Virus record (IMG/VR): IMGVR_UViG_3300036851_000117
Span: 1-44,627 of that record
DNA: 44,627 nt
Direction: 5' to 3' (one strand)
Source of the DNA: a virus
In this document: positions 25,861 through 43,364 of the stretch, piece after piece
Layout: the number at the start of each line of letters is the position of its first letter
Position numbering within the stretch: the stretch's first letter is position 1
Made by a program: the position numbers and the translations under genes
Notes under the pieces: generated by a model
The model's input: only the letters and a program-made list of their open reading frames with translations
What the model was told of the DNA's origin: nothing
The model's database searches: none

Positions 25861-26142
25861 ATGCACGGCGATATGAACTACAACCTGACCAACAAAATCC
25901 CAGACTTTCCAGAGGATGCGATGTTCTTCAAAGAGGACGGGCACTGGAGGGTCACAAGGCCAGCGGACTCTGCGTTGAATGGGATGGCAAGATCCTGGCA
26001 TATCTACGCAGATGGCACAGTTCTACCGAACACCTTGACGTTTGAAGGCTACTGCATGGACCAGCTGGTAAGAGTACCAAGGGATGAGGCAATCAGCTCG
26101 ATTCATGCGCTGAACGCGATGCAGTTGCCTGAGGGATTCTGA
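25861..26142 (+). CDS. LPEGF-tail protein, type I
   Basis: 93 residues (or 89 from the ATG at 25873; no strong site decides). Core PEDAMFFKEDGHWRVTRPAD, then WHIYADG, GYCMDQL, and the invariant ending MQLPEGF. Its paralogue at 26570 shares the FFK, HW, P-D-S, IY-D, E-YC and EA positions. Its stop overlaps the ATG of the next gene (TGATG), and GAGGGA in its last codons serves as that gene's ribosome site. Confidence 0.75.
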   Translation: MHGDMNYNLTNKIPDFPEDAMFFKEDGHWRVTRPADSALNGMARSWHIYADGTVLPNTLTFEGYCMDQLVRVPRDEAISSIHALNAMQLPEGF

Positions 26143-26573
26143 TGAGGCTGCGTAAAGTAATCTCGGGTGGTCAAACTGGTGCCGACCAGCAAGGACTAAT
26201 TGAGGGTCGTGCGCTAGGCCTAGAGACTGGTGGCTGGGTGCCGAGGGGATGGCGGACTGAGGATGGATCTGCGCCCTGGCTGGCAACGTTTGGGTGTAAG
26301 GAACACCCATCCGGCAAGTACCCACCCCGCACCAGAGAGAACGTGAAGGACTCCGAGGCGACGTTGTGGTTTGGCAACAGCAACTCTCCAGGGTACTACT
26401 GCACGTGGGGTGCGGCAAAGAGTCTTGGTCGAGAGTTCATTGTGAACCCTGATGCCGACTACGTGCGAGCCATTGCTGATACCTTCGAGGTCATCAACAT
26501 CGCAGGGAATCGAGCCAGTACCAACCCTGATGTAGCCGGTCTTGTGAAAGCAGCGTTTGCTGTACTAAAGTGA
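26142..26573 (+). CDS. Molybdenum-carrier/SLOG-like protein
   Basis: 143 residues. N-terminal VISGGQTGADQQGLIEGRAL (residues 6-25), then GGWVPRGWRTEDG and YPPRTRENVKDSEATLWFG, match the putative molybdenum carrier family (MoCo_carrier, a Rossmann-like SLOG relative of YpsA). Members are thought to bind a small nucleotide-like ligand. It sits between two LPEGF paralogues and overlaps both. Ligand and role are unknown; phage SLOG proteins have been proposed as counter-defence factors, which here is only a guess. Confidence 0.75.
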   Translation: MRLRKVISGGQTGADQQGLIEGRALGLETGGWVPRGWRTEDGSAPWLATFGCKEHPSGKYPPRTRENVKDSEATLWFGNSNSPGYYCTWGAAKSLGREFIVNPDADYVRAIADTFEVINIAGNRASTNPDVAGLVKAAFAVLK

Positions 26574-26848
26574 CGGTTATCCGAACTCTCCCATTTGACC
26601 TCCCCGCCAACGTCAGGTTCTTCAAGTCTGTCCCAGACAACCACTGGATCATCACACAGCCTGACTCAATGAGGCCTAACGGCCATTGCTGGGAAATCTA
26701 CGGCGATAGCATCCGCTATTTCTCTAACACAACAGAAGAGGAATACTGCAACGATGGCACACTTGGCAGATTTAAATACACTGAGTACACGCGTGAGGCG
26801 GCACTGGGAATATTAGACCAAAACCAACGTTTACCAGAGGGATTCTGA
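26570..26848 (+). CDS. LPEGF-tail protein, type I
   Basis: 92 residues, GTG start overlapping the upstream stop. Matches the type I protein at 25861 (FFK...HW.IT.PDS...NG...WEIYGD; E-EYC; YTREAALGI). Ends QRLPEGF. The two type I copies differ at most positions yet share the exact tail. Confidence 0.75.
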   Translation: MTVIRTLPFDLPANVRFFKSVPDNHWIITQPDSMRPNGHCWEIYGDSIRYFSNTTEEEYCNDGTLGRFKYTEYTREAALGILDQNQRLPEGF

Positions 26849-27012
26849 TGAAGCTCAAACTGCAATGGATTGCAATCCCTGAGATTCTCTGGTCTGGTCG
26901 AGACTGTTGGATCGTGAATCGTGGATTCTGGCACGCGTACTGGCCAGTGTCGTATAGCACATATAGTATTCAACAGGCAAGCATGCCAGTGTTCTTCGCC
27001 AAGGAGGACTAG
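26848..27012 (+). CDS. 54-residue Trp-rich protein
   Basis: Starts MKLKLQWIAIPEILWSGRDC; five Trp in 54 residues. Overlaps the type I gene by TGATG, using the GAGGGA of the LPEGF codons as ribosome site. No LPEGF tail itself. Unknown. Confidence 0.55.
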   Translation: MKLKLQWIAIPEILWSGRDCWIVNRGFWHAYWPVSYSTYSIQQASMPVFFAKED

Positions 27013-27014
27013 GG

Positions 27015-27194
27015 ATGTGTGATGACCAACGGCACACGTGCTACTGCGGCAAGGCGTACCCCTGCACACTCCCCAACTGGGTCTGTCCCACTCGCAACGA
27101 GGATGAGGACCAGAACATGTGTGAGGAGTGCTTGGAGGCTGAAGCAGCGAGACAACAAGCCTGGGCGGATGATGGGGGTGCAGGACGTGAGTGA
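27015..27194 (+). CDS. 59-residue Cys-rich protein
   Basis: CYCGKAYPC near the N-terminus and CEECLEAEAARQQ later give a zinc-ribbon-like pattern, with a charged helix at the end. GGAGGACTAGGG precedes the start. Confidence 0.5.
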   Translation: MCDDQRHTCYCGKAYPCTLPNWVCPTRNEDEDQNMCEECLEAEAARQQAWADDGGAGRE

Positions 27195-27264
27195 AACGTG
27201 GGCACTCGTGCTTGCGCTAGCGGCATCATTGTTTCTACTATTCATGATAGGAGTGTGGCAATGA
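27187..27264 (+). CDS. 25-residue membrane peptide (start uncertain)
   Basis: Likely GTG start at 27187 (MSETWALVLALAASLFLLFM), nearly all hydrophobic; in-frame ATG starts at 27169 and 27172 are possible. One transmembrane helix, ends IGVWQ. Overlaps both neighbours. Confidence 0.4.
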   Translation: MSETWALVLALAASLFLLFMIGVWQ

Positions 27265-27512
27265 TACGACTGGTTTTTACCGATGGGCGCTTAACCCCTG
27301 AGCCTACACCTACTCCAGACCCTGCAGAACAATTACATGCATCAATCACCAGAGCAGAACGTGTTGCCAGAATGATGCGAATGCAGACAGACCTCCAGCT
27401 GATGCTGATAGACCCTGCGTTCACGCCTGGCTCGCGTGATATGCTGCGCCATATGCTGGAACTGTTGTCACACATGGAGTTGTCCTCTACTACTCCTATG
27501 AATAGGTGGTAA
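27261..27512 (+). CDS. Helical protein, unknown
   Basis: 83 residues. N-terminal TPEPTPTPDPAEQL linker, then a helical Met/Arg-rich region (RAERVARMMRMQTDLQLMLI) and MLELLSHMEL. Soluble, amphipathic. Overlaps the membrane peptide (ATGA). Confidence 0.55.
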   Translation: MIRLVFTDGRLTPEPTPTPDPAEQLHASITRAERVARMMRMQTDLQLMLIDPAFTPGSRDMLRHMLELLSHMELSSTTPMNRW

Positions 27513-27554
27513 TAGCGCTAGTGCTTTGACATTGGACGGGCGCAGAAATCGTGA

Positions 27555-27569
27555 CAGCCCGGAGGGCTG
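27555..27569 (+). other. Short hairpin in the gap before 27605
   Basis: CAGCCC (27555-27560), GGA loop, GGGCTG (27564-27569). The 92-base gap (27513-27604) also has a TTGACA at 27528 but no matching -10 box, so no promoter is claimed. Confidence 0.3.
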
Positions 27570-27604
27570 GCGAGATTTGTGCGACCAGCTAGTGCGATGA
27601 TATC

Positions 27605-27814
27605 ATGACCTGGACTACCGCAGACATCCTCGCCTGGCTGGATTCACTAGGCTCCACGCGTGAGCGTCAGGTGGGGATGGTGAGACACCTCATGGCGAAT
27701 GCTAACCGCGATAGGATGTCGAAGGAAGACCGTGTGATCTGTGCGAAGGCGTTGAGTCTATGTGAACAGGGCCAAGGGCCCGCAGGTGAGCGGCCAATGG
27801 CTAGCTCGCTATAA
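27605..27814 (+). CDS. Helical protein, unknown
   Basis: 69 residues, MTWTTADILAWLDSLGSTRE followed by a basic helical stretch (RHLMANANRDRMSKEDRVIC). Small soluble protein; no family assigned. Confidence 0.55.
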   Translation: MTWTTADILAWLDSLGSTRERQVGMVRHLMANANRDRMSKEDRVICAKALSLCEQGQGPAGERPMASSL

Positions 27815-27837
27815 CTCGGTCAGTGGTAGGAATTACG

Positions 27838-28290
27838 ATGAAGAAGCACAAGGCGAAGAAGAAGGCAAAGTACGCAGCTGGATGCGGGGTGAACCTGCCG
27901 GATCTGCGAACAATCAAGGTGACACAACGTCACATTGATGATGGGATACCAGGGGATTCGGACTCCTGCGCCATCGCATTAGCCGTGAAGGACGTGCTGG
28001 ATGCGGCGGGGATCGAATACACTGAAGTGAGCGTTGGTGCATCCGACGACTCACACTTCGACTGCGATATTCCAATCAGCACACCAGTCGTCGTGAACGG
28101 CAAGGCGGTCGAGAGCATCGACCGTACCGCTCAGGTCCATGTCGAGCTGAACCTTGGCAAGAAGGCCGACAAGTTCATCTCGAAGTTCGATGAGGATGAA
28201 TGCGACGTGGACGGTGAGCCGTTGCCACGTAAGGGCGTCAAACCAACATCGTTCAAGTCCAAGCCTGCTGTCAGCGTTGAACTGGGGTAG
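27838..28290 (+). CDS. Small phage protein with an I-x-V-T-x2-H-I-x2-G motif
   Basis: 150 residues from ATG at 27838 (AGGA upstream). A Lys-rich start (KKHKAKKKAK) precedes TIKVTQRHIDDGIPGDSDSC, then A-x-A-LAVKDVLDAAG. I recognise the V-T-x-x-H-I-x-x-G-x-P...C-x-x-A motif from small conserved phage proteins of unknown function. Ends VSVELG. Confidence 0.65.
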   Translation: MKKHKAKKKAKYAAGCGVNLPDLRTIKVTQRHIDDGIPGDSDSCAIALAVKDVLDAAGIEYTEVSVGASDDSHFDCDIPISTPVVVNGKAVESIDRTAQVHVELNLGKKADKFISKFDEDECDVDGEPLPRKGVKPTSFKSKPAVSVELG

Positions 28291-28293
28291 GCG

Positions 28294-28659
28294 ATGCACG
28301 ACTGCGCGAAGCTCGTTGTGGTGATCCGACGTGATCTGCACCTGGGTAGAGACACGTTGGTCATCCAGGCATGCCATGCGGGATTGGGTGCGCTGGAGGA
28401 TATCACGCCTCTTGAGCTGGAGGAGTGGGAACGCAACGAGTATCAGACAGTCGTGCTGTTGTGCACTGGCGAGGGGGAACTGATGCGTCTGGAGGCTCTT
28501 GCGAGTCTGTTGGGCGTCAATTGCTACCTCGCGAAGGATGAGGGGGGGATCGCCATAGCGTTAGGTCTTGGGCCTAGCACCGAGCTGAGGCGTGTGACAG
28601 GCAGCCTACCGCTATGGTATCCCCAAGCGGATTCATCATCACACGTGGTGGTGCACTGA
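28294..28659 (+). CDS. PTH2-like peptidyl-tRNA hydrolase
   Basis: 121 residues. KLVVVIRRDLHLGRDTLVIQ with ACHAGLGA follows the PTH2 pattern (K-x-V-(L/V)-V-x-R-x-D-L-x-x-G-(K/R)-x-x-x-x-Q-x-x-H-A), with the basic and Asp positions kept. Such enzymes free tRNA from peptidyl-tRNA dropped by ribosomes; in phages they may help translation under stress. Whether it is active cannot be told from sequence. Confidence 0.7.
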   Translation: MHDCAKLVVVIRRDLHLGRDTLVIQACHAGLGALEDITPLELEEWERNEYQTVVLLCTGEGELMRLEALASLLGVNCYLAKDEGGIAIALGLGPSTELRRVTGSLPLWYPQADSSSHVVVH

Positions 28660-28934
28660 TGCCACGGGTGTGGAACAAACGTGACCCCAACTGCCCCAAG
28701 GATGCCGTGTATGTGGGTAGGCCCACGAAGTGGGGTAACCCATTCAAGGTTGCTGTTCATGGTAGGGATGCATGTATTGAGTTGTACAAATCATGGATCA
28801 ACGACCATGACTGTGCTGGATTCGTCATAGGTCGCTGGGCAAAGGAAGAGTTACGAGGCAAGGACTTGGTGTGTTGGTGTGCCCCACGCCCATGTCATGC
28901 TGATATACTGCTGCAGATCGCCAACGAGGACTGA
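28659..28934 (+). CDS. DUF4326-like protein
   Basis: 91 residues, overlapping the PTH2-like stop (TGATG). YVGRPTKWGNPF...ELYKSW...GRWAKEELRGKDLVCWCAPRPCHADIL is the characteristic order of the DUF4326 family (Y-V-G-R-x-T-x-W-G-N-P-F and C-W-C-x-P-x-x-C-H-x-D). Molecular function unknown; common in phage genomes. Confidence 0.8.
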   Translation: MPRVWNKRDPNCPKDAVYVGRPTKWGNPFKVAVHGRDACIELYKSWINDHDCAGFVIGRWAKEELRGKDLVCWCAPRPCHADILLQIANED

Positions 28935-29161
28935 TGTATATCCGCGCTAAGCTCAGAGCTATTGCAAACGATGTCAACGCAGGGATGTGGAAGACTGCGG
29001 AGGCTCGATTGCTGGGTAAGTCATGCGCTCAGATCTGGCGTGTCAGGCAGCAAGAGATGGGGAACTGTGGCGTATGTGGGCAGCCACGTCCTCCAGACCT
29101 AAAACTACGTTGTCGTCTCCACCAGGACAATTGGAACGCAATGACGAGAGGTAAACCGTGA
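28934..29161 (+). CDS. Small zinc-binding protein
   Basis: 75 residues. Helical N-terminus (IRAKLRAIANDVNAGMWKTA), then CGVCGQPR and RCRLHQDNW as a short zinc module. Overlaps both neighbours by a few bases. Confidence 0.55.
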   Translation: MYIRAKLRAIANDVNAGMWKTAEARLLGKSCAQIWRVRQQEMGNCGVCGQPRPPDLKLRCRLHQDNWNAMTRGKP

Positions 29162-29376
29162 CATTCCGCGCATGGATTTGTGAAAGATGCGGACGTGGAC
29201 AGAAGTTCCGTGAGAACGTCTGGGACTGCCCAGGTTGTGGTAAAGAAGGCTGCGACAACTGCTTCTGGATGTACGCACACTGTAAGCCATGCTGCAAGGG
29301 GAAGACAGAGGAGGAACTTCGACTGGCTGCCAATGCCAAAGGATTTGACTTTCAACCATTAGAGGAACCAGCATGA
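29158..29376 (+). CDS. Double zinc-ribbon protein
   Basis: 72 residues, GTG start. Cys pairs CERCGRG, CPGCGKEGC and CFWMYAHCKPCC give at least two zinc-binding clusters (10 Cys in 72 residues). Likely a protein or nucleic-acid adaptor. Confidence 0.6.
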   Translation: MTFRAWICERCGRGQKFRENVWDCPGCGKEGCDNCFWMYAHCKPCCKGKTEEELRLAANAKGFDFQPLEEPA

Positions 29377-29942: not shown

Positions 29943-29964
29943 ATTACGCTGAACAAATGCCCAC

Positions 29965-29981
29965 AGTACGCCATCCGTACT
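29965..29981 (+). other. Small hairpin upstream of the ubiquitin-like gene
   Basis: AGTACG (29965-29970) pairs with CGTACT (29976-29981) across a 5-base loop, in the 63-base gap before 30006. The gap ends in AAAGGAGGAAAA, a very strong ribosome site for the ubiquitin-like gene. Confidence 0.45.
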
Positions 29982-30005: not shown

Positions 30006-30203
30006 ATGGCTTCAGGACAGAAGGCTGTTTACGTCCCAGACCGCAGTACGCCGATGTACTTCGACGCGGGCCTGACGGTCGAAGAGATCAAGTCCGCGCT
30101 GGTGAGCACCGGCTACACGGCGGTGCAGAACAGCGAGGCGCGTATCTCGACGGATGGGCAGACGATTCGGTTCGAGCGAGTGACTGGCGGCAGCAAGGGC
30201 TAG
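30006..30203 (+). CDS. Ubiquitin-like protein, PRTRC system protein C-like
   Basis: 65 residues. The pattern AVYVPDRSTPMYFDAGLTVE then EIKSALVSTGYTAV, an ARISTDGQTIRFERV strand and the C-terminal TGGSKG matches the beta-grasp protein C of PRTRC cassettes, which end in a similar G-(T/S)-K-G. A GG pair lies at 61-62 with SKG after it, so a peptidase could expose a diglycine end. It has its own strong ribosome site and is flanked by hairpins. The homology is by pattern, not by search. Confidence 0.75.
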   Translation: MASGQKAVYVPDRSTPMYFDAGLTVEEIKSALVSTGYTAVQNSEARISTDGQTIRFERVTGGSKG

Positions 30204-30214
30204 TCCGGTGTTGA

Positions 30215-31066: not shown

Positions 31067-31816
31067 ATGGCTGAAACAGGAACAATCGTTCACGAAATCA
31101 AGTTACGTGCAGGAAGCCACCTCTGCGAGGTGACAGCCGGAGCGAGTCGCCGAGTGTACATCTCCAGCAGGCATGCTGTGGGGATGGCGTTGCTGCAGGA
31201 TGCGGGAGTGGCTCCAGAGCCCAGCATCCGAGAGATCCGCTGGACGGACATGCTGGTGAGTCACGGCGTGGCAGTTGGGGTGAAGGGACTGGAGCGGATC
31301 GTGATCGCTGTGGTTCCTCAGATGAAACGGACAGTGCAATGGACTGGACCAGCATTTGCGACCCCAACGTCTGAGACTGGCGTTACTGGCACGTATCCGC
31401 TGGATATCACGTTCCCGCCTGTGCTGGCGATGCTCAGAACGAACGAGCTGAGGTACGTGAGGGCGTACATGTTCTGTGTGCTGCCAGCAGCGTTGAAGAC
31501 GTTGACGGTGAGTGGTGAGGTTAACTCACTCGCTAGCTTCCCGTACGGCAACGTGTACTCATCGGGAGGCAGAATCTGCTGGGGGACGGTGGGCCACGCA
31601 TCCCTGAACACGATGGAGGACCTGTTGCACGCGTTCTTCAGCTCTGGGTTCAACAACGACCTGTTCGCGCCTAGCGCGTGTGGGACCAGGAGACGGAATC
31701 TGTGGGAACTGGTGAAAGAGACGAGTGGGGTTGTGACTTCACCGCCTGCACCTTACTTCACCATGAATGTTGCCACACAGCTCCGGAGGTTGTTGGGGAA
31801 CGAGACTGAGGAGTAG
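31067..31816 (+). CDS. E2-like protein, PRTRC system protein B-like
   Basis: 249 residues. Second-half signature: FPPVLAMLRTNELRYVRAYM, then SFPYGNVYSSGGRICWG (about 157-173) and HAFFSSGFNNDLF, matching PRTRC protein B, an E2-like (UBC fold) member. Cys 171, in the C-W-G turn after the beta hairpin, is a candidate active site. AGGAGAAAACG is the ribosome site. Protein B is thought to take the ubiquitin-like protein C from ThiF. Assignment is by pattern. Confidence 0.7.
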   Translation: MAETGTIVHEIKLRAGSHLCEVTAGASRRVYISSRHAVGMALLQDAGVAPEPSIREIRWTDMLVSHGVAVGVKGLERIVIAVVPQMKRTVQWTGPAFATPTSETGVTGTYPLDITFPPVLAMLRTNELRYVRAYMFCVLPAALKTLTVSGEVNSLASFPYGNVYSSGGRICWGTVGHASLNTMEDLLHAFFSSGFNNDLFAPSACGTRRRNLWELVKETSGVVTSPPAPYFTMNVATQLRRLLGNETEE

Positions 31817-31818: not shown

Positions 31819-32004
31819 ATGCAGATCTCACCCCTCGCATTTTCACGACTGCTGGAAGCCATGCGAGGCGATGAAACCAGTGTGTCTAACAGCGAGATTC
31901 TAGTGGCGCTGGATGATGAACGTTCCTACGTTCAACTCGTCGCTAGAACACTTGCGTACAATCGCGGCATCCAGGTGGTGAGCGATGCTACGCCCGGACT
32001 CTAG
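31819..32004 (+). CDS. Small helical protein, unknown
   Basis: 61 residues, MQISPLAFSRLLEAMRGDET with LDDERSYVQLVARTLAYNRG. TAGGG precedes the start. It overlaps the long start of the JAB gene by 20 bases. Unknown. Confidence 0.55.
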   Translation: MQISPLAFSRLLEAMRGDETSVSNSEILVALDDERSYVQLVARTLAYNRGIQVVSDATPGL

Positions 32005-33499
32005 GCGCTGTACGTACTGTCTCGACCAGTGTCTTGTCGTGAGGAGGACACAGCTGCTGGGAATGGAGTTTTGTGTCCTAGACTGCGGCCATTCCTGCGC
32101 CTACGCGTGTCAGATAAGCCAGCCGCAGCTGGCGTTACCATTAGAGCATGAGGAGAACACAATGATGGGATTTGGAGGAAAGAACGCGGAGCGAGCATGC
32201 GTGGGGTGCAGTGTCCAGTTCCGGTACTGGGGGACAACCGAGTTCAGCCAGTTCTGCTTCGACTGCAGGAAAGAGCTGGGGATCATGACGGACGCGGATG
32301 CCCGTCAGATCATGGACATCATCGAGCTGATCCCAGTCACTGAATGGGAGAAGCAGCAGGAGGAGTCCGTGAAGATGCGGAACGAGCGGAAGCCTGTGTG
32401 GAAGCAGCCACTGGCAGGAGTACGGGCTGGGCAGCAGGGCGAAACGCGTCTGGAACGCGTGGGGCCTCCACCCAATCCTGCGAACGTGGCGGCAGCGATT
32501 CGCAGTCAGATCCAGTACGGACTCACCACGGAGGACAATCTGGCGACAGTGACGGCGCCCACGGCGTATGTCCTGGCGAAGAACGGACTGTTCGAGATGC
32601 GGCATGTCGAGCAAGTGGATATCATCCTACAGCTCAGCGACAAACCAGTGCTGGGGCTGGTGAAGGAGATGAAGGCGGGGGTGAAGTGGAATATCCCAAG
32701 GATGCCGTACGAGTTTCTCAGGCAGACAGTGGCGTTGTTCCGCGAGACATGCAAGCGGAAGGGCGGCAGCAACGAGGCGTTCGTCAGGGTGTGGTGGAAT
32801 CTGACGACGAAGCAGTACTCGCTAATGGTGCCAGACCAGCACGTGAGCGGAGGGGGTGTACATCACACGGACACCTTCGACCAGATGCCGTCCGGCGAGT
32901 GGGTGGCTGTGGCGGACATTCACTCGCATGGGAGTGGGATGAGTGCATTCTTCTCCGGTGTGGACGACCATGACGAGAAGAAGGCGCCGGAGGGGCGTAT
33001 CTGTGGCGTCATCGGCAAGGTCAACCAGCCACTGCCCGAGTGGAAGTGGAGGCTGCGCACCCGCGAGGGGTTCATCGAGCTGAAGGCGACGGACTGCTTC
33101 GACTTCAAGACTGTCATGGAGGGGACGAAACTCCCATTCACCGTGACGCTGGATATCGTGTACGACAGCATGATGGATGTCACGAACGTGAAGAACGGCG
33201 AGGTCAGGCTGTTTTGTCCCGTGGATCCATTCCATGATGCGACGTGCCCTGAGGAGTGGCACGCGAAGATTGGGACGCGTGTGCATGGAGGAGTGGACGT
33301 GACAGTCAACCACGGCGCAGTGAACCAGCACGGGTGGGGACACCACGCCCCTCGCACGCAGTACGTGTTCATCCGAGATGGGAACACGCTGGTGGAGTGG
33401 GAAGTGCAGGGGAACTCGAGGAAGACAACTGGGAAGACGTTCAGTCTGGCGCCTGGCATGACACCAACAGGAGACCCAGCGCATGGCATTACCCACTGA
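31985..33499 (+). CDS. JAMM/JAB peptidase, PRTRC system protein A-like, with N-terminal zinc ribbons
   Basis: 504 residues from 31985, or 445 from ATG at 32162, which has a better ribosome site (GAGGAGAACAC). The JAMM metal motif is ADIHSHGSGMSAFFSGVDDHDE (H313, H315, S324, D327), where FFSxxDDxDE is the protein A style of PRTRC; spacing between HxH and S is one longer than usual. The N-terminus adds CTYC/C-x5 and CVGC...CFDC zinc ribbons. It could process or remove the ubiquitin-like protein. Confidence 0.75.
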   Translation: MLRPDSRRCTYCLDQCLVVRRTQLLGMEFCVLDCGHSCAYACQISQPQLALPLEHEENTMMGFGGKNAERACVGCSVQFRYWGTTEFSQFCFDCRKELGIMTDADARQIMDIIELIPVTEWEKQQEESVKMRNERKPVWKQPLAGVRAGQQGETRLERVGPPPNPANVAAAIRSQIQYGLTTEDNLATVTAPTAYVLAKNGLFEMRHVEQVDIILQLSDKPVLGLVKEMKAGVKWNIPRMPYEFLRQTVALFRETCKRKGGSNEAFVRVWWNLTTKQYSLMVPDQHVSGGGVHHTDTFDQMPSGEWVAVADIHSHGSGMSAFFSGVDDHDEKKAPEGRICGVIGKVNQPLPEWKWRLRTREGFIELKATDCFDFKTVMEGTKLPFTVTLDIVYDSMMDVTNVKNGEVRLFCPVDPFHDATCPEEWHAKIGTRVHGGVDVTVNHGAVNQHGWGHHAPRTQYVFIRDGNTLVEWEVQGNSRKTTGKTFSLAPGMTPTGDPAHGITH

Positions 33500-33719: not shown

Positions 33720-33925
33720 GCACATATGACGAGGGGTCATGCCCCGGTGAATCATTGAACCTGACCGTTCTACTTGACATCATTGACAAACGCAGAGTCA
33801 TTGATGCCGAGGAGCCGCCAGCTTCCCCGTACTGGGTCGGCTGGAACGATGCTCTCACACAGGTGTTCAAGGACGCAGTCGAACGAAACATAGCTAGCGT
33901 GGAGGCACGAGATGGCCGCAACTGA
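33716..33925 (+). CDS. Small protein between JAB and ThiF, unknown
   Basis: 69 residues, MSTYDEGSCPGESLNLTVLL then EEPPASPYWVGWNDALTQVF. ATGA overlap upstream, 14-base overlap with the ThiF start. Unknown. Confidence 0.55.
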   Translation: MSTYDEGSCPGESLNLTVLLDIIDKRRVIDAEEPPASPYWVGWNDALTQVFKDAVERNIASVEARDGRN

Positions 33926-34805
33926 AACAACTAAACCTCTCATTATGGCCACGGCAGCGCCACTGCGAGGACCGCTACGGGTGATTCTAGTCGGTGCAGG
34001 TGGGAACGGGGCACGAGTGATGCCCCCATTGATGCAGATGCTCCGACCAGGGGATACCGTGTCAGTCATTGACCACGACATCGTGGAAGACAGGAACCTG
34101 ACGCGGCAGCACTTCACAGAGCGGGATATTGGCAGGCCAAAGGCGTTGGTGCTGACGGAGCGGTACCGGAGGGCGGGGATCGCCACAACAGCATTCGCGC
34201 ATCCTATGGCCCAAGCCACGAACCAGCAACTGGCCAGGGACTTACCTCCAGCTGATGCCAGGACCGGGGCGACCGCCGTGATCGGCTGTGTGGACAACTG
34301 GCGAGCGAGGACGGCCATCAAGAATTTCATTGATGCACGTTTACCTGGCCAGCGAGCCTGGATTGATGTGGGGAACGAGACACGGGGAGGACAGGTGCTG
34401 ATGAACCTAATTGCATGGCCACTGATAGTGCCAGGCGTGTGCACGACTCCAGCAGCGATGCATGTCCCAGCGTTCGAGGCAATGCCCCAGCTGTTGCGGG
34501 CACAAGCGTGGGACTGCGTGCCGTGCGGGATCAGGAATGCGGCAGGCGCGGAGGAGTGTTCCGGGTGTCAGCAGCCAGAGGCGAGTTGCGGCCAGCGGAT
34601 CGACATGCAGACCGTGATGGTGAACCACATGGCTGCCGCCAGTGCACTGAACTGTCTGTCCTGGCTGATACTGGGGATTCCCTTCACATCATGCGGGGCA
34701 TTCTTCTCCACGTTGAATACGATGCAGCCGATCCAACTGACACGGTGGGATCCAGGCCGAGTCTCGCTGGTGCCAGATACCACGTTTGCGACGGCAGCTG
34801 AGTAG
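33912..34805 (+). CDS. ThiF/E1-like adenylyltransferase, PRTRC ThiF family
   Basis: 297 residues. GAGGNG (28-33) is the nucleotide-binding loop; VIDHDIVEDRNLTRQHF (52-68) supplies the acidic and Arg/Asn positions of the E1 family; DIGRPKA follows, then a zinc-binding CVPC...CSGC pair (202-219) and SCGQRIDMQTVMVNHMAA, with Cys 226 a possible acceptor. E1-like enzymes adenylate the C-terminal glycine of a ubiquitin-like protein, here presumably the one at 30006. Confidence 0.8.
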   Translation: MAATETTKPLIMATAAPLRGPLRVILVGAGGNGARVMPPLMQMLRPGDTVSVIDHDIVEDRNLTRQHFTERDIGRPKALVLTERYRRAGIATTAFAHPMAQATNQQLARDLPPADARTGATAVIGCVDNWRARTAIKNFIDARLPGQRAWIDVGNETRGGQVLMNLIAWPLIVPGVCTTPAAMHVPAFEAMPQLLRAQAWDCVPCGIRNAAGAEECSGCQQPEASCGQRIDMQTVMVNHMAAASALNCLSWLILGIPFTSCGAFFSTLNTMQPIQLTRWDPGRVSLVPDTTFATAAE

Positions 34806-35506: not shown

Positions 35507-35740
35507 ATGGCCGATACGTTTGACCACTGGACGATGCTGGGTAAGGGCGACATCGATCCGTATATTCGTGCTCCATACACGGACTACTGCCGTCAGCATT
35601 CACCAAGCGGTAGTTTTGTCTGTACTCGCGGTATTGGACATACTGGCTTGCATGTCGCGTGTTACTCAGACGGAAGGGTGTGTTGCAAGGCGTGGAATCC
35701 TGCTCTCCCGCGAGAGATGCAGTTGCCGGAAGGGTTCTAA
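35507..35740 (+). CDS. LPEGF-tail protein, type II
   Basis: 77 residues. Type II pattern: WTMLGKGDIDPY, then CRQH, FVCTRGIGHTGLHVACYSDG (a C-x-x-x-x-x-x-H zinc-finger-like run shared by the group), and PREMQLPEGF. ATG at 35507 has GGAG upstream. First of ten consecutive genes; its stop overlaps the next start (TAATG). Confidence 0.75.
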   Translation: MADTFDHWTMLGKGDIDPYIRAPYTDYCRQHSPSGSFVCTRGIGHTGLHVACYSDGRVCCKAWNPALPREMQLPEGF

Positions 35741-35979
35741 TGCCGCCAGAAGTGGATGAGTGGACCGTGCTGAGAATGGATGAAATGGATCCATACTTCG
35801 CGGAGAACCGCAACTTCTGTCGGGAGAAATCTGGACCTGGACCTGGATTGAGTGCGGGATGGATCTGTACACGAAAAGTCGGTCATACAGGTCTACATGT
35901 CGCGAGTTCAGGCAGAGAACGTGCATGCTTTTCGTGGAATGGCACACCACGTGAGATGCAACTCCCGGAGGGGTTTTAA
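35740..35979 (+). CDS. LPEGF-tail protein, type II
   Basis: 79 residues, the closest copy of the gene before it (WTVLRMDEMDPYF; WICTRKVGHTGLHVASSG; GTPREMQLPEGF), with a Gly/Pro insert (SGPGPGLSAG). Start inside the upstream stop; GAAGGG of the upstream LPEGF codons is the ribosome site. Confidence 0.75.
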   Translation: MPPEVDEWTVLRMDEMDPYFAENRNFCREKSGPGPGLSAGWICTRKVGHTGLHVASSGRERACFSWNGTPREMQLPEGF

Positions 35980-36192
35980 GTGATAGAGCGGTATGTTGCT
36001 GGACGAGGCAGCACATGGACAGGGTACTGTGAGTACGATCGAGAGAGATCCCAGTACCGCCATTGGATGCTTAATTACGTCTTCCAACCTACATGGCATC
36101 ATCTTTCTCATGATGCCTTGGAGGGTCTTCTAATAACTAAAGACTGGGTGCCTCAAATCCCACCAGACCAACAACTCCCCGAGGGATTCTAG
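35980..36192 (+). CDS. LPEGF-tail protein, type III
   Basis: 70 residues, GTG start directly after the upstream TAA. Type III pattern: ERYVAGRGSTWTGYCEYDRE then QYRHW, WHHLSHDALEGLL and PDQQLPEGF. Similar to 36647 and 42767. GAGGGG in the preceding tail is the ribosome site. Confidence 0.75.
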   Translation: MIERYVAGRGSTWTGYCEYDRERSQYRHWMLNYVFQPTWHHLSHDALEGLLITKDWVPQIPPDQQLPEGF

Positions 36193-36413
36193 TGGATCCA
36201 GGACTTGATTACTGGGCTCCGCTTGGCCCAGGGAGTGTAGACCCATGCTATGAGCCGAGCGATCCATGGTGTAATGTAATATCTCCCAAGGATAGTTGGT
36301 TCTGTAGCCGTACCCCAGGACATCCAGGGCCACATGTAGCGAGTGATGTTGACCAGGTGCTGGAAGTGTGGGATGGACTGCCAATGGAACTGCGCCTACC
36401 GGAGGGGTTCTGA
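36192..36413 (+). CDS. LPEGF-tail protein, type II
   Basis: 73 residues, GTG in the upstream stop (TAGTG). WAPLGPGSVDPCYE, WFCSRTPGHPGPHVAS, then EVWDGLPMELRLPEGF. Type II zinc-finger-like core is conserved. Confidence 0.75.
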   Translation: MDPGLDYWAPLGPGSVDPCYEPSDPWCNVISPKDSWFCSRTPGHPGPHVASDVDQVLEVWDGLPMELRLPEGF

Positions 36414-36646
36414 TGGAACGCGATCCGTATTGGGATCCCATCCCACTGGGGGACCATGATCCGTACTACGTGAATAACCCAGGTACCAACGAGATCAACT
36501 GGTGCAACGAGATGTCTCCTGTTGATGATTGGTTCTGCAGTCGTGCTCCAGGACATCCAGGCCTACACGTGGCGAGTAATGAGGAAGAGGTTCTGGAGGT
36601 GTGGGGTGAAACGCCACCCGATCAACGCCTACCAGAGGGGTTCTAG
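36413..36646 (+). CDS. LPEGF-tail protein, type II
   Basis: 77 residues, ATG in the upstream TGA. DPIPLGDHDPYY, CNEMSPVDDWFCSRAPGHPG then LHVASNEE and PPDQRLPEGF. Adjacent to its closest copy at 36192, so a recent duplication. Confidence 0.75.
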   Translation: MERDPYWDPIPLGDHDPYYVNNPGTNEINWCNEMSPVDDWFCSRAPGHPGLHVASNEEEVLEVWGETPPDQRLPEGF

Positions 36647-36871
36647 GTGGATAAAGGATTCACGGAACGGTACGTGTGGGGAGGGGTTGGGTACGCTTGG
36701 AAAGGGTACGTGCTGTACGACCCAACAAGGGAACAATACCAATACTTCCATCCTGAAACCATAATCCGTGGTATGCATGGATTGAATCAATCTGAGCTTA
36801 AGCAGTATCTCACTCGGGGAAACTGGAAGTTGGATATCCCGCTGGAGTTACGTCTGCCGGAGGGGTTTTAA
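36647..36871 (+). CDS. LPEGF-tail protein, type III
   Basis: 74 residues, GTG directly after TAG. TERYVWGGVGYAWKGYVLYD then EQYQYFHPE, LNQSELKQYL and PLELRLPEGF. Matches the type III gene at 35980 in order, with different residues. Confidence 0.75.
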   Translation: MDKGFTERYVWGGVGYAWKGYVLYDPTREQYQYFHPETIIRGMHGLNQSELKQYLTRGNWKLDIPLELRLPEGF

Positions 36872-37140
36872 TGGCGGTACAAATGCCAGCGCGGCCTGTT
36901 GGCCCGCAGTACCAGTTCTGGCGGAGACAACAGGTGTCCCATGATGGAATTCCACGGTACTCTTCTCCAATCTATGTGCTTGATACGCTAAGTGGAAATG
37001 CATATTGGTACTCGGAAATAGGAGAATTCAGTTGCATGTCTGGGCTAACCAGAGCTGTCATGGAGAATCAGGGCGGAGTCCGATTGGAGTATTCCCCGTG
37101 GGATGACCGTCCTGAGATGAGACTGCCGGAGGGGTTCTAG
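36871..37140 (+). CDS. LPEGF-tail protein, singleton type
   Basis: 89 residues, ATG overlapping TAA. Tyr-rich beta protein (PRYSSPIYVLDTLSGNAYWY, then GEFSCMSGLTRAVMENQG) ending PEMRLPEGF. It shares only the tail with the other types. Confidence 0.7.
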   Translation: MAVQMPARPVGPQYQFWRRQQVSHDGIPRYSSPIYVLDTLSGNAYWYSEIGEFSCMSGLTRAVMENQGGVRLEYSPWDDRPEMRLPEGF

Positions 37141-37370
37141 TGACAACATTCGATCCATGGACTGTGCTTGACAAGGGTGAAAGAGACCCGATGGCACTGG
37201 GTTACAACCAACGAGGTAAATGGTGTGGGCATAAATTCTGCACTGGGTGGATGTGTAACCGTCCATTAGGCCATGACGGGCATCATGTAGGGACTGACTC
37301 AATGGGTGGTGGAATGTACTACATCACATATCGTGACCCACCGGACATGCAACTCCCTGAGGGATTCTGA
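37140..37370 (+). CDS. LPEGF-tail protein, type II
   Basis: 76 residues, GTG in the upstream TAG. WTVLDKGERDPMALGY, then CTGWMCNRPLGHDGHHVG and PPDMQLPEGF. The GH-x-G-x-HV element of type II is retained. Confidence 0.75.
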   Translation: MTTFDPWTVLDKGERDPMALGYNQRGKWCGHKFCTGWMCNRPLGHDGHHVGTDSMGGGMYYITYRDPPDMQLPEGF

Positions 37371-37600
37371 TGAACGTAAGCGTAGCTGACCCATGGGAGA
37401 TGTTATATGAGGGAGAAGCTGACTTCATGTTCCCGGTAGGGCATCGTGATCCATTCTGTCTTGCAAGCAATGCTGGGTTTATCTGCACCAGGCCACTATA
37501 TCATGAGGGGTTGCACGTAGCGTGCAGTAGTGGAGGTCGTGTCTGTACAGACGCATGGGCGACATCCAGTCCCGAGATGCAGTTGCCCCCAGGGTTTTAG
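37370..37600 (+). CDS. LPEGF-like-tail protein, type II (ends LPPGF)
   Basis: 76 residues, ATG in TGA. WEMLYEGEADFMFPV, FICTRPLYHEGLHVACSSGG, then SPEMQLPPGF. The Glu of the tag is replaced by Pro (ccc cca ggg ttt), and the purine-rich ribosome site is correspondingly weaker. Confidence 0.75.
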   Translation: MNVSVADPWEMLYEGEADFMFPVGHRDPFCLASNAGFICTRPLYHEGLHVACSSGGRVCTDAWATSSPEMQLPPGF

Positions 37601-37602
37601 CC

Positions 37603-37797
37603 ATGGCCGATCCATACAAACCTGTAACTTACAAGTGTCTACGGTGTGACGGACCAAATATGCGATTCCATCGGATTGCGAATTGTGACTCACTCAACTG
37701 GAATACTCCATCCAATCGATGGTTCCGTTGTTGGCACTGTGGGTTCACGTGTAAGGAGTCGTTGTTGTTAATGTACACGCTACCCCCAGGACTCTAG
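37603..37797 (+). CDS. Zinc-ribbon protein ending LPPGL
   Basis: 64 residues. CLRCDGP (residues 11-17) and CWHCGFTCK (about 45-53) form a zinc ribbon; the tail is YTLPPGL, a degenerate version of LPEGF, and lies at the end of the second cluster. I count it as a divergent member. Confidence 0.65.
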   Translation: MADPYKPVTYKCLRCDGPNMRFHRIANCDSLNWNTPSNRWFRCWHCGFTCKESLLLMYTLPPGL

Positions 37798-39497: not shown

Positions 39498-39507
39498 GAG
39501 GAGCAAG

Positions 39508-39693: not shown

Positions 39694-39710
39694 CAGCCAG
39701 GAGGGGACTG

Positions 39711-40100
39711 ATGAAACGAATAACACTCGCGTTGGTGCTGGTGGGAGTCACGACGTTCGTATATGCGGCACAGAACACGCACGACACGTATTTCCGTGGA
39801 GCCCACAGGGTCGCGTTCGGCGTCTCGGCTCAGAAGGTGGGAGTGGATACCCGCGTGACACTCACGTACCCGGATCTGAAGAACATCTGGGTGTGCCTGA
39901 CGTTCCGGAAGGTTGGGGAACCGAGTTATGCCCCAAGGTGGTGCTTTGCACCGGCGAATACATCATCCGAGGTGTTTACGATTCCGAGGTGGCCGCCAGT
40001 CCCTGCGACAGACGCGTGGGAGTTCTACGCGATTCTACAGTACATCAGCAGCAATGGGGCGAATGGGTACGTCGTGACGGGGTGGCAGGAGCTCCACTAA
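39711..40100 (+). CDS. Exported beta protein
   Basis: 129 residues with a signal peptide (MKRITLALVLVGVTTFVYAA, cleavage near AQ). The mature part is a beta sandwich-like domain with two Cys (VCLTFRKV; PRWCFAPAN). AGGAGGGG-like site upstream. Probably periplasmic or cell-surface; function unknown. Confidence 0.65.
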   Translation: MKRITLALVLVGVTTFVYAAQNTHDTYFRGAHRVAFGVSAQKVGVDTRVTLTYPDLKNIWVCLTFRKVGEPSYAPRWCFAPANTSSEVFTIPRWPPVPATDAWEFYAILQYISSNGANGYVVTGWQELH

Positions 40101-40119
40101 CACTGGAAGGGGTGCAGCT

Positions 40120-40317
40120 ATGTCGAAGGTACTAGTACTGATAAGGGATGTCCCACAGACCGAATGTCCGTGGCTGGACCGGGACCTGAAGGCGGGAGAG
40201 ACCGTCTGGTCGTACACGGGGCCTACATACGGGGTAGTGTCTCCAGACGGGACACCTGTGACGGCGAAAGCAGCTGAGACTCCATTCTTTGAACTCCCTG
40301 CGGATTCAGTAAGGTAG
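40120..40317 (+). CDS. Small beta protein, unknown
   Basis: 65 residues, MSKVLVLIRDVPQTECPWLD then GETVWSYTGPTYGVVSPDGT. Short beta domain, probably structural or adaptor. AAGGGG upstream. Confidence 0.55.
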   Translation: MSKVLVLIRDVPQTECPWLDRDLKAGETVWSYTGPTYGVVSPDGTPVTAKAAETPFFELPADSVR

Positions 40318-40324
40318 GTGTAGG

Positions 40325-40561
40325 ATGGATCCGTTACTCACTCCAGGCGAGCAGGAGGAATTCAAGTTGTTGGTGCACCTAGGGTTGTTTGGCCTAGGGG
40401 TAACGTGTGGACTGTACTCAGCGGGGGCGTGCTTGGCTCGTCCAGCGAGGCACCTGATGGTGAACACAGCGGCGTACGGGCTGCTGACTGCGTGGGAAGT
40501 CATACAGATCCGCAGGCACTGGCGGGGAATGTGTGATATCCGAAGGGAGCGGTGCGGGTGA
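40325..40561 (+). CDS. Small membrane protein
   Basis: 78 residues with two hydrophobic segments (LVHLGLFGLGVTCGLYSAGA; MVNTAAYGLLTAWEVIQI) and a basic C-terminus. Resembles the 41-residue protein at 43454 near its end (AxxGLxTAWEV / GVFMAEGWESV). Confidence 0.6.
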   Translation: MDPLLTPGEQEEFKLLVHLGLFGLGVTCGLYSAGACLARPARHLMVNTAAYGLLTAWEVIQIRRHWRGMCDIRRERCG

Positions 40562-40725
40562 TGGCGGGGCATACAAAGTGGAGTGAGATCAAGCACAAGT
40601 CACAGGCAGTCCCATTAACGTGGTGGGATAAGCTTCTCACAGTCATCATCACAGGCGCCGTCGCGATAGGGATGGCAGCGGTCATGCTGCTGACGTTGTT
40701 GATGTGGGCGGTGTTGCTGAGGTAA
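40561..40725 (+). CDS. 54-residue single-span protein
   Basis: MAGHTKWSEIKHKSQAVPLT then a hydrophobic span (LTVIITGAVAIGMAAVMLLT). ATG overlaps the upstream TGA. Basic N-terminus inside. Confidence 0.55.
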   Translation: MAGHTKWSEIKHKSQAVPLTWWDKLLTVIITGAVAIGMAAVMLLTLLMWAVLLR

Positions 40726-40739
40726 GGGAGGGGTGTTAG

Positions 40740-40865
40740 GTGGGTGTCAACGTGACGGGGTGGAAGGTTGGGCTCACACTAGGAGTGATGTTTGCGGGAT
40801 ACGTGGTGCTAGGTGTATACCTAGTATGCAGTTCTATGTATCACTACATCAAAGGCAGGGGATGA
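40740..40865 (+). CDS. 41-residue single-span protein
   Basis: GTG start with GGGAGGGG upstream. MGVNVTGWKVGLTLGVMFAG, then a hydrophobic segment and MYHYIKGRG. One membrane span. Confidence 0.5.
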   Translation: MGVNVTGWKVGLTLGVMFAGYVVLGVYLVCSSMYHYIKGRG

Positions 40866-40942
40866 GCAATAGACCCGCCCGCAGACAAAGGCGGCTACGC
40901 TCCCGCTTGCTCCGCGCTTCCGCTTCGCAGCCTTCGCCTTAG
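40862..40942 (+). CDS. Possible 26-residue Arg-rich peptide
   Basis: MSNRPARRQRRLRSRLLRAS, ATGA overlap with the previous gene. Strongly basic; could be real or a chance frame in a GC-rich palindromic stretch. Confidence 0.3.
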   Translation: MSNRPARRQRRLRSRLLRASASQPSP

Positions 40943-40970
40943 TCTACCACACGTGTCAAGGGGTTGTCAA
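40941..40970 (-). promoter_or_regulatory. Candidate minus-strand promoter, antisense to its surroundings
   Basis: On the minus strand: TTGACA (40965-40970), 18-base spacer ending TGTGG, TAGACT (40941-40946). It has the same TTGACAAC...TGTGG arrangement as the late promoters but points into oppositely coded genes. It could make an antisense transcript, or the match is coincidental. Confidence 0.35.
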
Positions 40971-40976
40971 GGATTT

Positions 40977-41144
40977 ATGCAGAAACAGTACCAATGCGTG
41001 AAACTCCGTGTGTTTTACATGGTTGTGGCTGCTATTGATGTAGCAGCGGGACTTACCGTGTTGATGACGCTGGGGTATGTGACACCTAACTGGACGATGG
41101 ACTTCCTGGTGTGGCACGGGGAGTGGGCGATGCGGAAGGGCTAA
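40977..41144 (+). CDS. 55-residue membrane protein
   Basis: MQKQYQCVKLRVFYMVVAAI, then VAAGLTVLMTLGYVTPNWTM. Two weak spans, basic N-terminus. AAGGA precedes the ATG. Converges with the ATPase gene (4-base overlap of ends). Confidence 0.5.
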   Translation: MQKQYQCVKLRVFYMVVAAIDVAAGLTVLMTLGYVTPNWTMDFLVWHGEWAMRKG

Positions 41145-42055
41145 CGGCTGAGCTTTAACCCCCGTCGGTCAGGTGTCCACTCTGGGTGAATGTCGATTCG
41201 ACGCCTTAGCCCAAACGCTCTGGTCTTGGCAGGCATGATATACGTGTTGGCCAACCCATCCGGTCTGAGGGCTCCAGCAGCCCTTACATGGAACCATACC
41301 GCGTCAGCCATCCCAACCCATGCCTTAGCTCCCCGAATCGTTCTACGGGGCTCCTGGCCGTCCTGGGAGCCATCCTCAGTGATGATCCGGGAGTGTTTCA
41401 GGACTACCATGGCAGCGGTGTGGGGAACCACATTCATGACCCCTCGGAGTTTGTTCACTGCCTGGGTGGCTATCCCGTTATCATTCTCGTCCAGGATGGC
41501 ACAGCATGGGGTAGCGGTGTCCAGGATAATGAGGTCGGGTTGGACAACTTGTACTGCTTGGCTGGCTCTGGCACCCCAATCGGCAGTCCCAAGGAAGAAG
41601 TGTTGTGTCCAGAAGTTCGCTGCAACTCGTTCCAGAGATGGACGTTCCAGCCCTTCCCACGCCCAGCGGAGATATTGGTCCCGGTCTGGACGTGAGTTCT
41701 CCTGATCAAAGTACAGGACGCGGAGCGGGCGTACGGGCGTGTACCCGAGCAATGGAACACCCGTTGCGCATGCGAGCCCAAGCGCGTACCAGAGGAATGA
41801 CTTACCAACCCCAGGTTCCCCAGCGTACACAACGAGGGAGCCTTGGGCGATAAACTCTGGGACAAGCCAGCGCACAGCGGGATCAGTGCCAGTGAGGATG
41901 GGGATAATGGGGTTAGGAGGGATCGATGGAGGCTGAATACTGGTTTCGACCGAGTCAGGCACAGACACGCTGGTGGTACCAGCCGTCACAGCCCGATGGT
42001 CAGGTGTTGTCACCGTCGGGCCTGACAACGTGGACAATGTATCATTTGACTCCAT
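41141..42055 (-). CDS. RecA/RepA-type AAA ATPase (AAA_25-like)
   Basis: 304 residues. A disordered Thr/Pro/Ser-rich 60-residue N-terminus, then FIAQGSLVVYAGEPGVGKSF with Walker A GEPGVGKS (about 79-86), LRVLYFDQENSRPDRD (Asp-Gln-Glu switch), PDLIILDTATPC (Walker B) and a K/R-rich sensor region (IRGAKAWVGMADAVWFHVRA). This fits RepA/DnaB-like or AAA_25 replicative helicase-loader ATPases. It is the only minus-strand gene in the plus-strand block and has its own promoter. Confidence 0.8.
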   Translation of the reverse strand: MESNDTLSTLSGPTVTTPDHRAVTAGTTSVSVPDSVETSIQPPSIPPNPIIPILTGTDPAVRWLVPEFIAQGSLVVYAGEPGVGKSFLWYALGLACATGVPLLGYTPVRPLRVLYFDQENSRPDRDQYLRWAWEGLERPSLERVAANFWTQHFFLGTADWGARASQAVQVVQPDLIILDTATPCCAILDENDNGIATQAVNKLRGVMNVVPHTAAMVVLKHSRIITEDGSQDGQEPRRTIRGAKAWVGMADAVWFHVRAAGALRPDGLANTYIMPAKTRAFGLRRRIDIHPEWTPDRRGLKLSR

Positions 42056-42067
42056 TAGGAATCATTG

Positions 42068-42097
42068 AAGATAGCATAGCATCGCCTGTGGTGTCAA
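42068..42097 (-). promoter_or_regulatory. Promoter of the AAA ATPase gene
   Basis: On the minus strand: TTGACA (42092-42097), 18-base spacer, TATCTT (42068-42073). Transcription would begin at about 42061, 6 bases before the ATG at 42055, so the transcript is nearly leaderless. Confidence 0.6.
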
Positions 42098-42108
42098 CAG
42101 CGCCGGAT

Positions 42109-42345
42109 ATGCTAGTTCGATACGAACGAGGCGTGCCAAAGGACAACCCAATAATGCCCGACGTTGCTGCTGGCTCGTACGTGATCATCAATCGCAGGAC
42201 CGGTACAGTTGGGGCGTTTAACCCAGACGGCAGTATTGTCTGGCCTGAACGTAAGCTTGCCCCTTATGAAGAAACTACCAATCTTGAGATTGGGATGTGG
42301 TACGTGGGGACACCTGTAGATATGCGGCTCCCGGAGGGATTCTGA
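42109..42345 (+). CDS. LPEGF-tail protein, type IV
   Basis: 78 residues from ATG at 42109, chosen because the paralogue at 42979 begins at the same point (MLVRYERG / MLIRYNCP). Then GSYVIINRRTGTVGAFNPDG and SIVWPERKLAP, ending PVDMRLPEGF. Opens the third LPEGF cluster, divergent from the ATPase gene. Confidence 0.7.
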   Translation: MLVRYERGVPKDNPIMPDVAAGSYVIINRRTGTVGAFNPDGSIVWPERKLAPYEETTNLEIGMWYVGTPVDMRLPEGF

Positions 42346-42521
42346 TGTGGCGCTACGTGCCACTTGCAGAGCCACCCCCACCCATACGCAGGTGCCAGTG
42401 CAATGCGGTGGCCATTGAGTGCCATGATAAGGCAGTATTAGGGAGTAATCTCTGTTATGCGTGCTACATGAACTGTATCCAACCTCTGCATCCAGACCAG
42501 CAACTCCCCGAAGGATTCTAA
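42345..42521 (+). CDS. LPEGF-tail protein, type V (zinc ribbon)
   Basis: 58 residues, ATG in TGA. RRCQCNAVAIECHDKAVLGS, NLCYACYMNCIQ, then PDQQLPEGF. Cys pairs match the type V gene at 43194. Confidence 0.75.
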   Translation: MWRYVPLAEPPPPIRRCQCNAVAIECHDKAVLGSNLCYACYMNCIQPLHPDQQLPEGF

Positions 42522-42524
42522 ACT

Positions 42525-42767
42525 GTGTCCAATCACGTTCGTCTTGTACCTGGCACTCTGTATTGCCATTTCACGGGTCGCCCACTTCGTTTACGGAGTG
42601 TGGGTGGTACTGTCACGGATTGCTATGTATCCGTGGACGGATCAGGACAAGGATTTGCTCATCCAGTGGGTCACCTTGACCAGCAATTTCCGTATGACAC
42701 ACGATACATTTCTGATCTATGTATTGCATTCACCACCCCAGAGATGCGGCTGCCCGAGGGGTTCTAA
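42525..42767 (+). CDS. LPEGF-tail protein, singleton type
   Basis: 80 residues, GTG start 3 bases after the upstream TAA. Beta-rich (LYCHFTGRPLRLRSVGGTVT, then CYVSVDGSG), ending TTPEMRLPEGF. Not similar to other types except for the tail. Confidence 0.7.
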   Translation: MSNHVRLVPGTLYCHFTGRPLRLRSVGGTVTDCYVSVDGSGQGFAHPVGHLDQQFPYDTRYISDLCIAFTTPEMRLPEGF

Positions 42768-42979
42768 TGTTTGAAGAATACGTCTGGCACAATGTTGATC
42801 CAGATACATACTACTACGAGTATGATCGTGAACACGAGCAATATCGGTACGTGCCTAACAATACCCCAAGCCCCATATGGGACAAACTATCCCACTCTGG
42901 TGCGGATGCTCTCACTGCGTCTGGTAACTGGTCTCTGCGGCCATGCCAGGCAGACCTCAGGCTCCCTGAAGGGTTCTAA
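42767..42979 (+). CDS. LPEGF-tail protein, type III
   Basis: 70 residues, ATG in TAA. EYVWHNVDPDTYYYEYDRE then QYRYVPNN, WDKLSHSGADALTASGNW and ADLRLPEGF. Parallels 35980 and 36647. Confidence 0.75.
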   Translation: MFEEYVWHNVDPDTYYYEYDREHEQYRYVPNNTPSPIWDKLSHSGADALTASGNWSLRPCQADLRLPEGF

Positions 42980-43194
42980 TGTTGATCCGTTATAACTGCC
43001 CCAGATCTGGGTATCATGGTGCGTACGTGCTGCTGGATACTGACACCCGTAACGCGAAAGGGTACTTCGAGGATGGCAGCATTCGATGGGGTATGCGTTA
43101 TATCTCAGCAGAGAGTGAGCGCAAGGACGTAACACTTGGTACATGGGTGTTACCGTTTGTACCCCTAGACCAGCGTTTACCTGAGGGGTTCTGA
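42979..43194 (+). CDS. LPEGF-tail protein, type IV
   Basis: 71 residues, ATG in TAA. MLIRYNCPRSGYHGAYVLLD, GYFEDGSIRWG, LGTWVLPFVPLDQRLPEGF. Close to the type IV gene at 42109. Confidence 0.75.
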   Translation: MLIRYNCPRSGYHGAYVLLDTDTRNAKGYFEDGSIRWGMRYISAESERKDVTLGTWVLPFVPLDQRLPEGF

Positions 43195-43364
43195 TGTCCA
43201 GGCTTGTATACGAACCGATCCACCAATGCCAGTGTAATGTGGCTATGTCACCGTGTGAACGTAAAGCCTTGCCGGGGCATACTCTTTGTGCTGCATGTAA
43301 GCGAGGTTGCATCCAACTGTTACCAGAGGTGCCAGTGGATCAACAATTACCAGAGGGGTTCTAG
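43194..43364 (+). CDS. LPEGF-tail protein, type V (zinc ribbon)
   Basis: 56 residues, ATG in TGA. HQCQCNVAMSPCERKALPG, LCAACKRGCIQLLPE, then PVDQQLPEGF. Last LPEGF gene of the window, and no start overlaps its stop, so its tail is kept without any downstream ribosome-site need. Confidence 0.75.
   Translation: MSRLVYEPIHQCQCNVAMSPCERKALPGHTLCAACKRGCIQLLPEVPVDQQLPEGF

Follow-up and report, generated by a model that had tools for sequence, protein, structure and literature searches.

Introduction

The capsid targeting sequence (CTS) of phage T4 is an N-terminal element that is cleaved. The T4 internal proteins are highly diverse defense proteins that are conserved only in this sequence (PMC3012670). 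In cluster K mycobacteriophages, start-associated sequences (SAS), which are conserved 13-bp repeats containing a Shine-Dalgarno (SD) motif, are present in 11 to 19 copies per genome at the starts of some genes (PMC3203893). A study of termination-reinitiation at the junctions of overlapping genes has tested what internal SD motifs contribute (PMC6728339). Here we describe a gene array in an uncultured phage, IMG/VR virus record IMGVR_UViG_3300036851_000117, whose 44,627 bases were analyzed over their full length and are referred to as the window. The array consists of 18 small genes whose products have bodies of at least five unrelated types; nearly all of these products have the same C-terminal end, the pentapeptide LPEGF followed by a stop codon (the LPEGF tag).

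Each of the three systems resembles this array in part. If the tag serves for docking, varied phage proteins would have one short targeting sequence in common, as in T4, and by this analogy the CTS would be the closest functional precedent; the LPEGF tag differs in being C-terminal rather than N-terminal, in having an unrelated sequence, in overlapping an SD site and in being known here from genes alone. The SAS are likewise conserved SD-containing repeats at the starts of some genes, but they are conserved as DNA, independently of codons, whereas the LPEGF tags are conserved as a peptide with free third positions in the Leu and Pro codons. Translational coupling has in common with the array the TGATG and TAATG overlaps and an SD site inside the upstream gene (PMC6728339), but its usual description needs no fixed C-terminal peptide.

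Results

A six-frame scan of the window detected LPEGF-stop at the end of 16 open reading frames (ORFs), LPPGF-stop at the end of one and LPPGL-stop at the end of another. All 18 were on the plus strand, in three clusters (25861-26848, 35507-37797 and 42109-43364), within a region of densely packed small genes (~21-44 kb); the minus strand carried putative structural genes (terminase, portal, scaffold-like and capsid) at ~0-20 kb. The degenerate 18-mer YTNCCNGARGGNTTYTRR had 16 forward and no reverse matches in the window, and a reversed-pattern control had none. Three more conserved residues preceded the pentapeptide, giving a tail of approximately [DE]-[MLQ]-[QR]-LPEGF, in which the 18 genes matched as follows: [DE], 15; [MLQ], 17; [QR], 17; L, 18; P, 18; E, 16 (P in 2); G, 18; and F, 17 (L in 1). 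The residue directly before LPEGF or LPPG was Q in eight genes, R in nine and T in one. Codon usage was varied, with CTC for Leu in six tags and TTG, TTA, CTA and CTG in three each, all four codons for Pro, GAG or GAA for Glu and TTC or TTT for Phe; Gly was encoded by GGG and GGA only. These counts agreed with a prediction previously made from the sequence of this window (the original prediction), which had listed the 18 proteins, their three clusters, the codon variety and at least five body types.

The bodies were grouped by an all-against-all comparison from which the tails had been removed, and this yielded families A to E and three singletons. Family A, in which Cys and His residues are conserved, had six members: 35507-35740 and 35740-35979 (both ...REMQLPEGF), 36192-36413 (...MELRLPEGF), 36413-36646 (...PDQRLPEGF), 37140-37370 (...PDMQLPEGF) and 37370-37600 (variant tail ...PEMQLPPGF). 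Family B comprised 35980-36192 (...PDQQLPEGF), 36647-36871 (...LELRLPEGF) and 42767-42979 (...ADLRLPEGF) and had a weak relation to family D, namely 42109-42345 (...VDMRLPEGF) and 42979-43194 (...LDQRLPEGF). Family C was formed by 25861-26142 (93 amino acids [aa]; ...NAMQLPEGF) and 26570-26848 (92 aa; ...QNQRLPEGF), and the Cys-rich family E by 42345-42521 (...PDQQLPEGF) and 43194-43364 (...VDQQLPEGF). The singleton bodies were those of 36871-37140 and 42525-42767 (both ...PEMRLPEGF) and of 37603-37797, which has two CxxC pairs resembling a zinc ribbon and the variant tail ...MYTLPPGL. The LPPG variant (GAG to CCA) was thus common to two adjacent genes with unrelated bodies (37370-37797), a hint of local tail exchange.

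Ratios of the proportions of nonsynonymous and synonymous differences (pN/pS) in the bodies were 0.36 to 0.74, with pS values of 0.68 to 0.95, which fits real, diverged coding genes. An N terminus common to the tagged proteins was not found. No convincing relatives of the bodies were detected in phages, plasmids, Pfam, PHROGs, viral contigs or species genomes, and fold searches with the type A and type B models gave no significant structural match. A weak profile match between family A and the TRIM5 B-box (E value, 4e-4) rested on a CCHH zinc-type site, had no Pfam support and was treated as convergence. The type A model was of poor quality. The predicted type B model had a beta-beta-beta-alpha-beta order, which differs from that of a beta-grasp fold, and a predicted local distance difference test (pLDDT) score of 76; its last 10 residues had a mean pLDDT of 51 versus 73 to 89 in the body blocks, so that the model is compatible with an exposed tail.

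Several known C-terminal signals were compared with the tail. Like the sortase LPxTG signal, the tag begins with L-P, but it has no Thr, hydrophobic segment or basic tail, and the protein stops after five residues; the stop codon followed the pentapeptide directly in all cases, which upheld the original view that this is not a sortase signal. Sliding-clamp binding motifs have the form QLxLF or QLVLGL. The tag has a similar shape at the C terminus, Q-L-x-x-G-[FL], but half of the tags have R in place of Q, which occupies position 1 in 8 of the 18, and the central hydrophobic residue at position 4 is replaced by Glu (Pro in the variants). Short C-terminal tags, as in the ssrA type, are frequent among bacterial degrons, and a tag of this kind, recognized by a host or phage protease, would yield short-lived early proteins; the tail is unlike the -LAA ends of that type, and we regard such a role as very unlikely.

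Conservation of the tail was then related to changes in its codons. When the DNA columns of the 8-codon tail were shuffled independently, the observed amino-acid conservation was reached in 0 of 20,000 shuffles, and single-codon shuffle fractions were 0.0005 to 0.05 at [QR], [MLQ], E and L, fractions that are not true probabilities because paralogues share ancestry. Over all gene pairs, LPEGF had a pS of 0.78 and a pN of 0.07, and P and G never changed nonsynonymously. Tail DNA differed at 9.5 of 27 nucleotides (nt) within body families versus 9.3 of 27 between families; synonymous sites have thus reached saturation, and the similarity does not stem from recent copying. Copying of tails between genes had been considered as a separate candidate and was rejected, as near-identical tails were in no overall excess, with one close pair between families B and E (genes ending at 36192 and 42521). 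The third positions of the Leu and Pro codons were near random and covariation was at the codon level, and a fixed DNA repeat of the SAS type was rejected on these grounds. Overall, these analyses indicated that the tail is maintained by selection acting on the peptide, as originally proposed, together with an SD constraint by which Gly is always GGR.

The basis of that constraint was evident at the 3' ends of the genes. Most tag stops overlapped the next ATG or GTG, as TGATG (genes ending at 26142, 26848, 36413, 37370, 42345 and 43194), TAATG (36871, 42767 and 42979) or TAGTG (36192 and 37140). A few abutted the next start, two were 3 to 4 nt away, and stops followed by a separate start codon included TAA then GTG (35979), TAG then GTG (36646) and TAG then ATG (37797). 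A total of 17 of the 18 tags were thus at the next start or within 4 nt of it, the exception being the gene ending at 43364. The Glu-Gly codons formed GARGGR at SD distance before the next start (AGGR in the two LPPG variants), and the Gly codon was GGR in 18 of 18 tags versus 55 of the 103 Gly codons in the corresponding bodies. As read from the sequence, the same DNA encodes the tag and the SD site of the next gene, and 17 of the 18 tags have the stop/start overlap or short spacing with an internal SD that is expected of a translational-coupling junction. The Glu-Gly codons are under this additional nucleotide constraint, so that part of the nucleotide conservation has a second cause. An anti-SD hairpin, which demands C at the third position of the Leu codon for pairing with G, was rejected on inspection, as C was present in 6 of 18 tags.

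A peptide without function could arise from such an arrangement, as a by-product of the SD and stop/start junction and of the common ancestry of tandem duplicates. Duplication within families is evident, the SD site is encoded by the invariably GGR-ending Glu-Gly codons, and single LPEGF-stop junctions with an ATG occur in unrelated phage genes. However, the SD site does not cover L, P, F or the upstream [MLQ][QR], L and P change only synonymously, and five or more body families have the tag. A scan of 1.13 Mb of DNA from other phages detected a single such E-G-x junction, which was preceded by EA, not LP. The column shuffles, the pN/pS values and the synonymous saturation also oppose this explanation, which is already largely contradicted and which we hold to be improbable; an SD site as the sole cause was ruled out mainly by the shuffles, the tail distances, pN/pS and the 1.13-Mb junction scan.

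The main rival of a docking role is an effect in cis, in which the nascent peptide, still in the ribosomal tunnel, would slow termination and so promote reinitiation at the overlapping start, making the tail a coupling cassette with an internal SD. This explanation fits the close spacing (17 of the 18 tags lie no more than 4 nt from the following start) and the presence of GARGGR at SD distance; the constrained residues adjoin the stop codon, and termination-reinitiation at TGATG overlaps is established (PMC6728339). Against this, overlapping junctions after untagged genes of the same phage (starts at 26570, 28934, 29158, 29373, 33716, 35187 and 35501, in a comparison of about a dozen junctions in a hand-picked gene set) had no LPEGF, which indicated that stop/start overlap does not require it. 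Neither the circularly permuted YpsA (cpYpsA) gene, which is flanked immediately by a tagged gene on each side, nor the 54-aa ORF that follows position 26848 had a tag, which indicated that the tag follows protein class and not position; it was restricted to small orphan proteins. Furthermore, gene 43194-43364 keeps the tag with no coupled start on its 3' side: an SD separate from the tag precedes the next plausible start, and the gene is followed by a promoter-like site (TTGACA-17-TATGCT, 43419-43447, plus strand; a consensus match of a kind that is in no excess region-wide). An effect in cis is, on balance, unlikely.

The distribution of the tag outside the window was examined in several collections. 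LPEGF-stop was found in 0 of 12 viral records with a terminase 59 to 79% identical to that of the window; three of these relatives, examined further, had the structural module in common and almost nothing detectable of the tagged region. Patterns of two successive tags had no match in IMG/VR or in 84,980 species genomes, whereas the wider of them matched four places in the window; this pattern prescribes the SD letters and a single range of spacing, and arrays with another layout may escape it. A scan of the whole collection for a single LPEGF-stop with an overlapping ATG gave 23 contigs with one match each, mostly in unrelated genes, which is the expectation from the SD overlap plus chance. 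A chance origin of the array itself is excluded by the absence of tags from the terminase relatives and the JAB-carrying records described below and by the occurrence of only single matches elsewhere. Literature searches for LPEGF returned unrelated words and strings only. In two other viral contigs (L009, near 5694, and L015, near 7846), mutually homologous genes that are unrelated to the tagged ones end in STG[YF]PCMLPEGF-stop, and an ATG overlaps the stop, a case in which relatives have conserved one LPEGF junction.

A PRTRC-like cassette is located about 1 to 5 kb upstream of cluster 2, on the plus strand. It includes a candidate ubiquitin-like protein (Ubl) gene outside the tagged set (30006-30203; product ending in VTGGSKG), an E2-like gene (31067-31816; Prok-E2_D, subthreshold), a JAB-like gene with N-terminal Cys pairs (31985-33499; PRTRC_A; E value, 2e-15, below the curated cutoff) and an E1-like gene (33912-34805; PRTRC_ThiF; E value, 4e-27, below the curated cutoff; ThiF Pfam above its cutoff). 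Homologues of JAB and E1 were detected by tblastn in Salmonella phage Arash and Vibrio phage D69 in the same E2-JAB-E1 order, the E2-like ORF in these phages being assigned by position and by eye. In this comparison, a gene upstream of the cassette (L052:4385-5176) had three repeats ending in TGTKG.

The proximity of this cassette (E1 [ThiF], E2-like, JAB and Ubl candidates) raises the prospect that the tagged proteins are ubiquitin-like themselves, with JAB trimming the terminal Phe and E1 and E2 conjugating through the exposed Gly, or that the tag docks substrate receptors to this machinery. A flexible tail with a penultimate Gly would be a feasible substrate. The encoded end is Phe rather than the C-terminal Gly (or Gly-Gly) used by E1, so that trimming would be needed, and a Ubl candidate with a terminal Gly already appears to belong to the cassette; the type B model does not have the beta-grasp arrangement. 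Moreover, LPEGF-stop was absent from 24 viral records with a related JAB and from Arash, D69 and MT835919, and no other repeated C terminus was found in the stretches examined of the JAB-carrying records. The presence of the tag is thus not tied to the PRTRC-like cassette, and the co-occurrence looked for by the original prediction was not borne out. A ubiquitin-like role appears improbable.

Other genes were noted around the array. The cpYpsA gene (26142-26573; SLOG family) overlaps the LPEGF genes on both of its sides. A putative lipoprotein with the lipobox LLAVACSQ and long Pro/Cys-rich and Asp-rich repeats is encoded at 24991-25782, and a peptidyl-tRNA hydrolase 2 (PTH2) domain protein (Pfam above cutoff) is encoded at 28294-28659 in the plus-strand region. 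An AAA_25 (RepA-like) ATPase gene (41141-42055) lies between clusters 2 and 3 on the minus strand, as does a promoter-like site, TTGACA-18-TATCTT (42097-42068).

Discussion

The explanation that we favor, with moderate confidence, is that the tail, selected as a peptide, serves diverse small phage proteins as a C-terminal motif for docking or targeting in trans. A short linear motif of approximately [DE]-[MLQ]-[QR]-L-P-E-G-F-COOH, carried by small proteins of differing bodies, would act after translation and bring different small effectors to one common partner, which could be a phage structure (head or scaffold) or an enzyme of the phage or its host. The SD site and the stop/start overlap are supplied by these 18 nucleotides as well and would couple translation along the array. 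Both the action in trans and the single common partner are what we infer. A recognition, processing or localization tag, as originally suggested, is possible; selection on the peptide and the lack of a sortase signal stood from that suggestion, and the link to PRTRC-like genes did not.

Several points weigh against a docking role. No partner for the tag and no second tagged genome were found. Nearly the same pattern would result if the nascent peptide influenced termination or reinitiation in cis; of the arguments opposing such an effect, the one from untagged junctions draws on that dozen or so hand-picked cases and the one from a tag without coupling on a single gene, that ending at 43364. 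The shared ancestry of the paralogues also bears on the shuffle fractions. A more specific form of the docking explanation, to which we give little credence, is a phage-specific modular tag by which unrelated small effectors, some of them Cys/His-rich, would be fed to one phage machine, either that of head packaging or the ubiquitin-type enzymes that the phage encodes; the tag codons would at the same time serve as a gene-linking ribosome-binding site.

The location of the tag on the stop/start junction, the use of GARGGR as the SD of the next gene and the conserved [DE] position of the tail were not part of the original prediction. The array offers a search handle for similar arrays carrying other tags. 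If LPEGF is an address label common to these proteins, a whole effector set would be defined by one pentapeptide encoded by the phage, and the receptor would be retrievable with a single peptide. It would also represent an unusual case of joint selection, in at least 16 genes, on nucleotides that both encode a protein motif and form a ribosome-binding site, and it would be a C-terminal counterpart to the T4 capsid targeting sequence.

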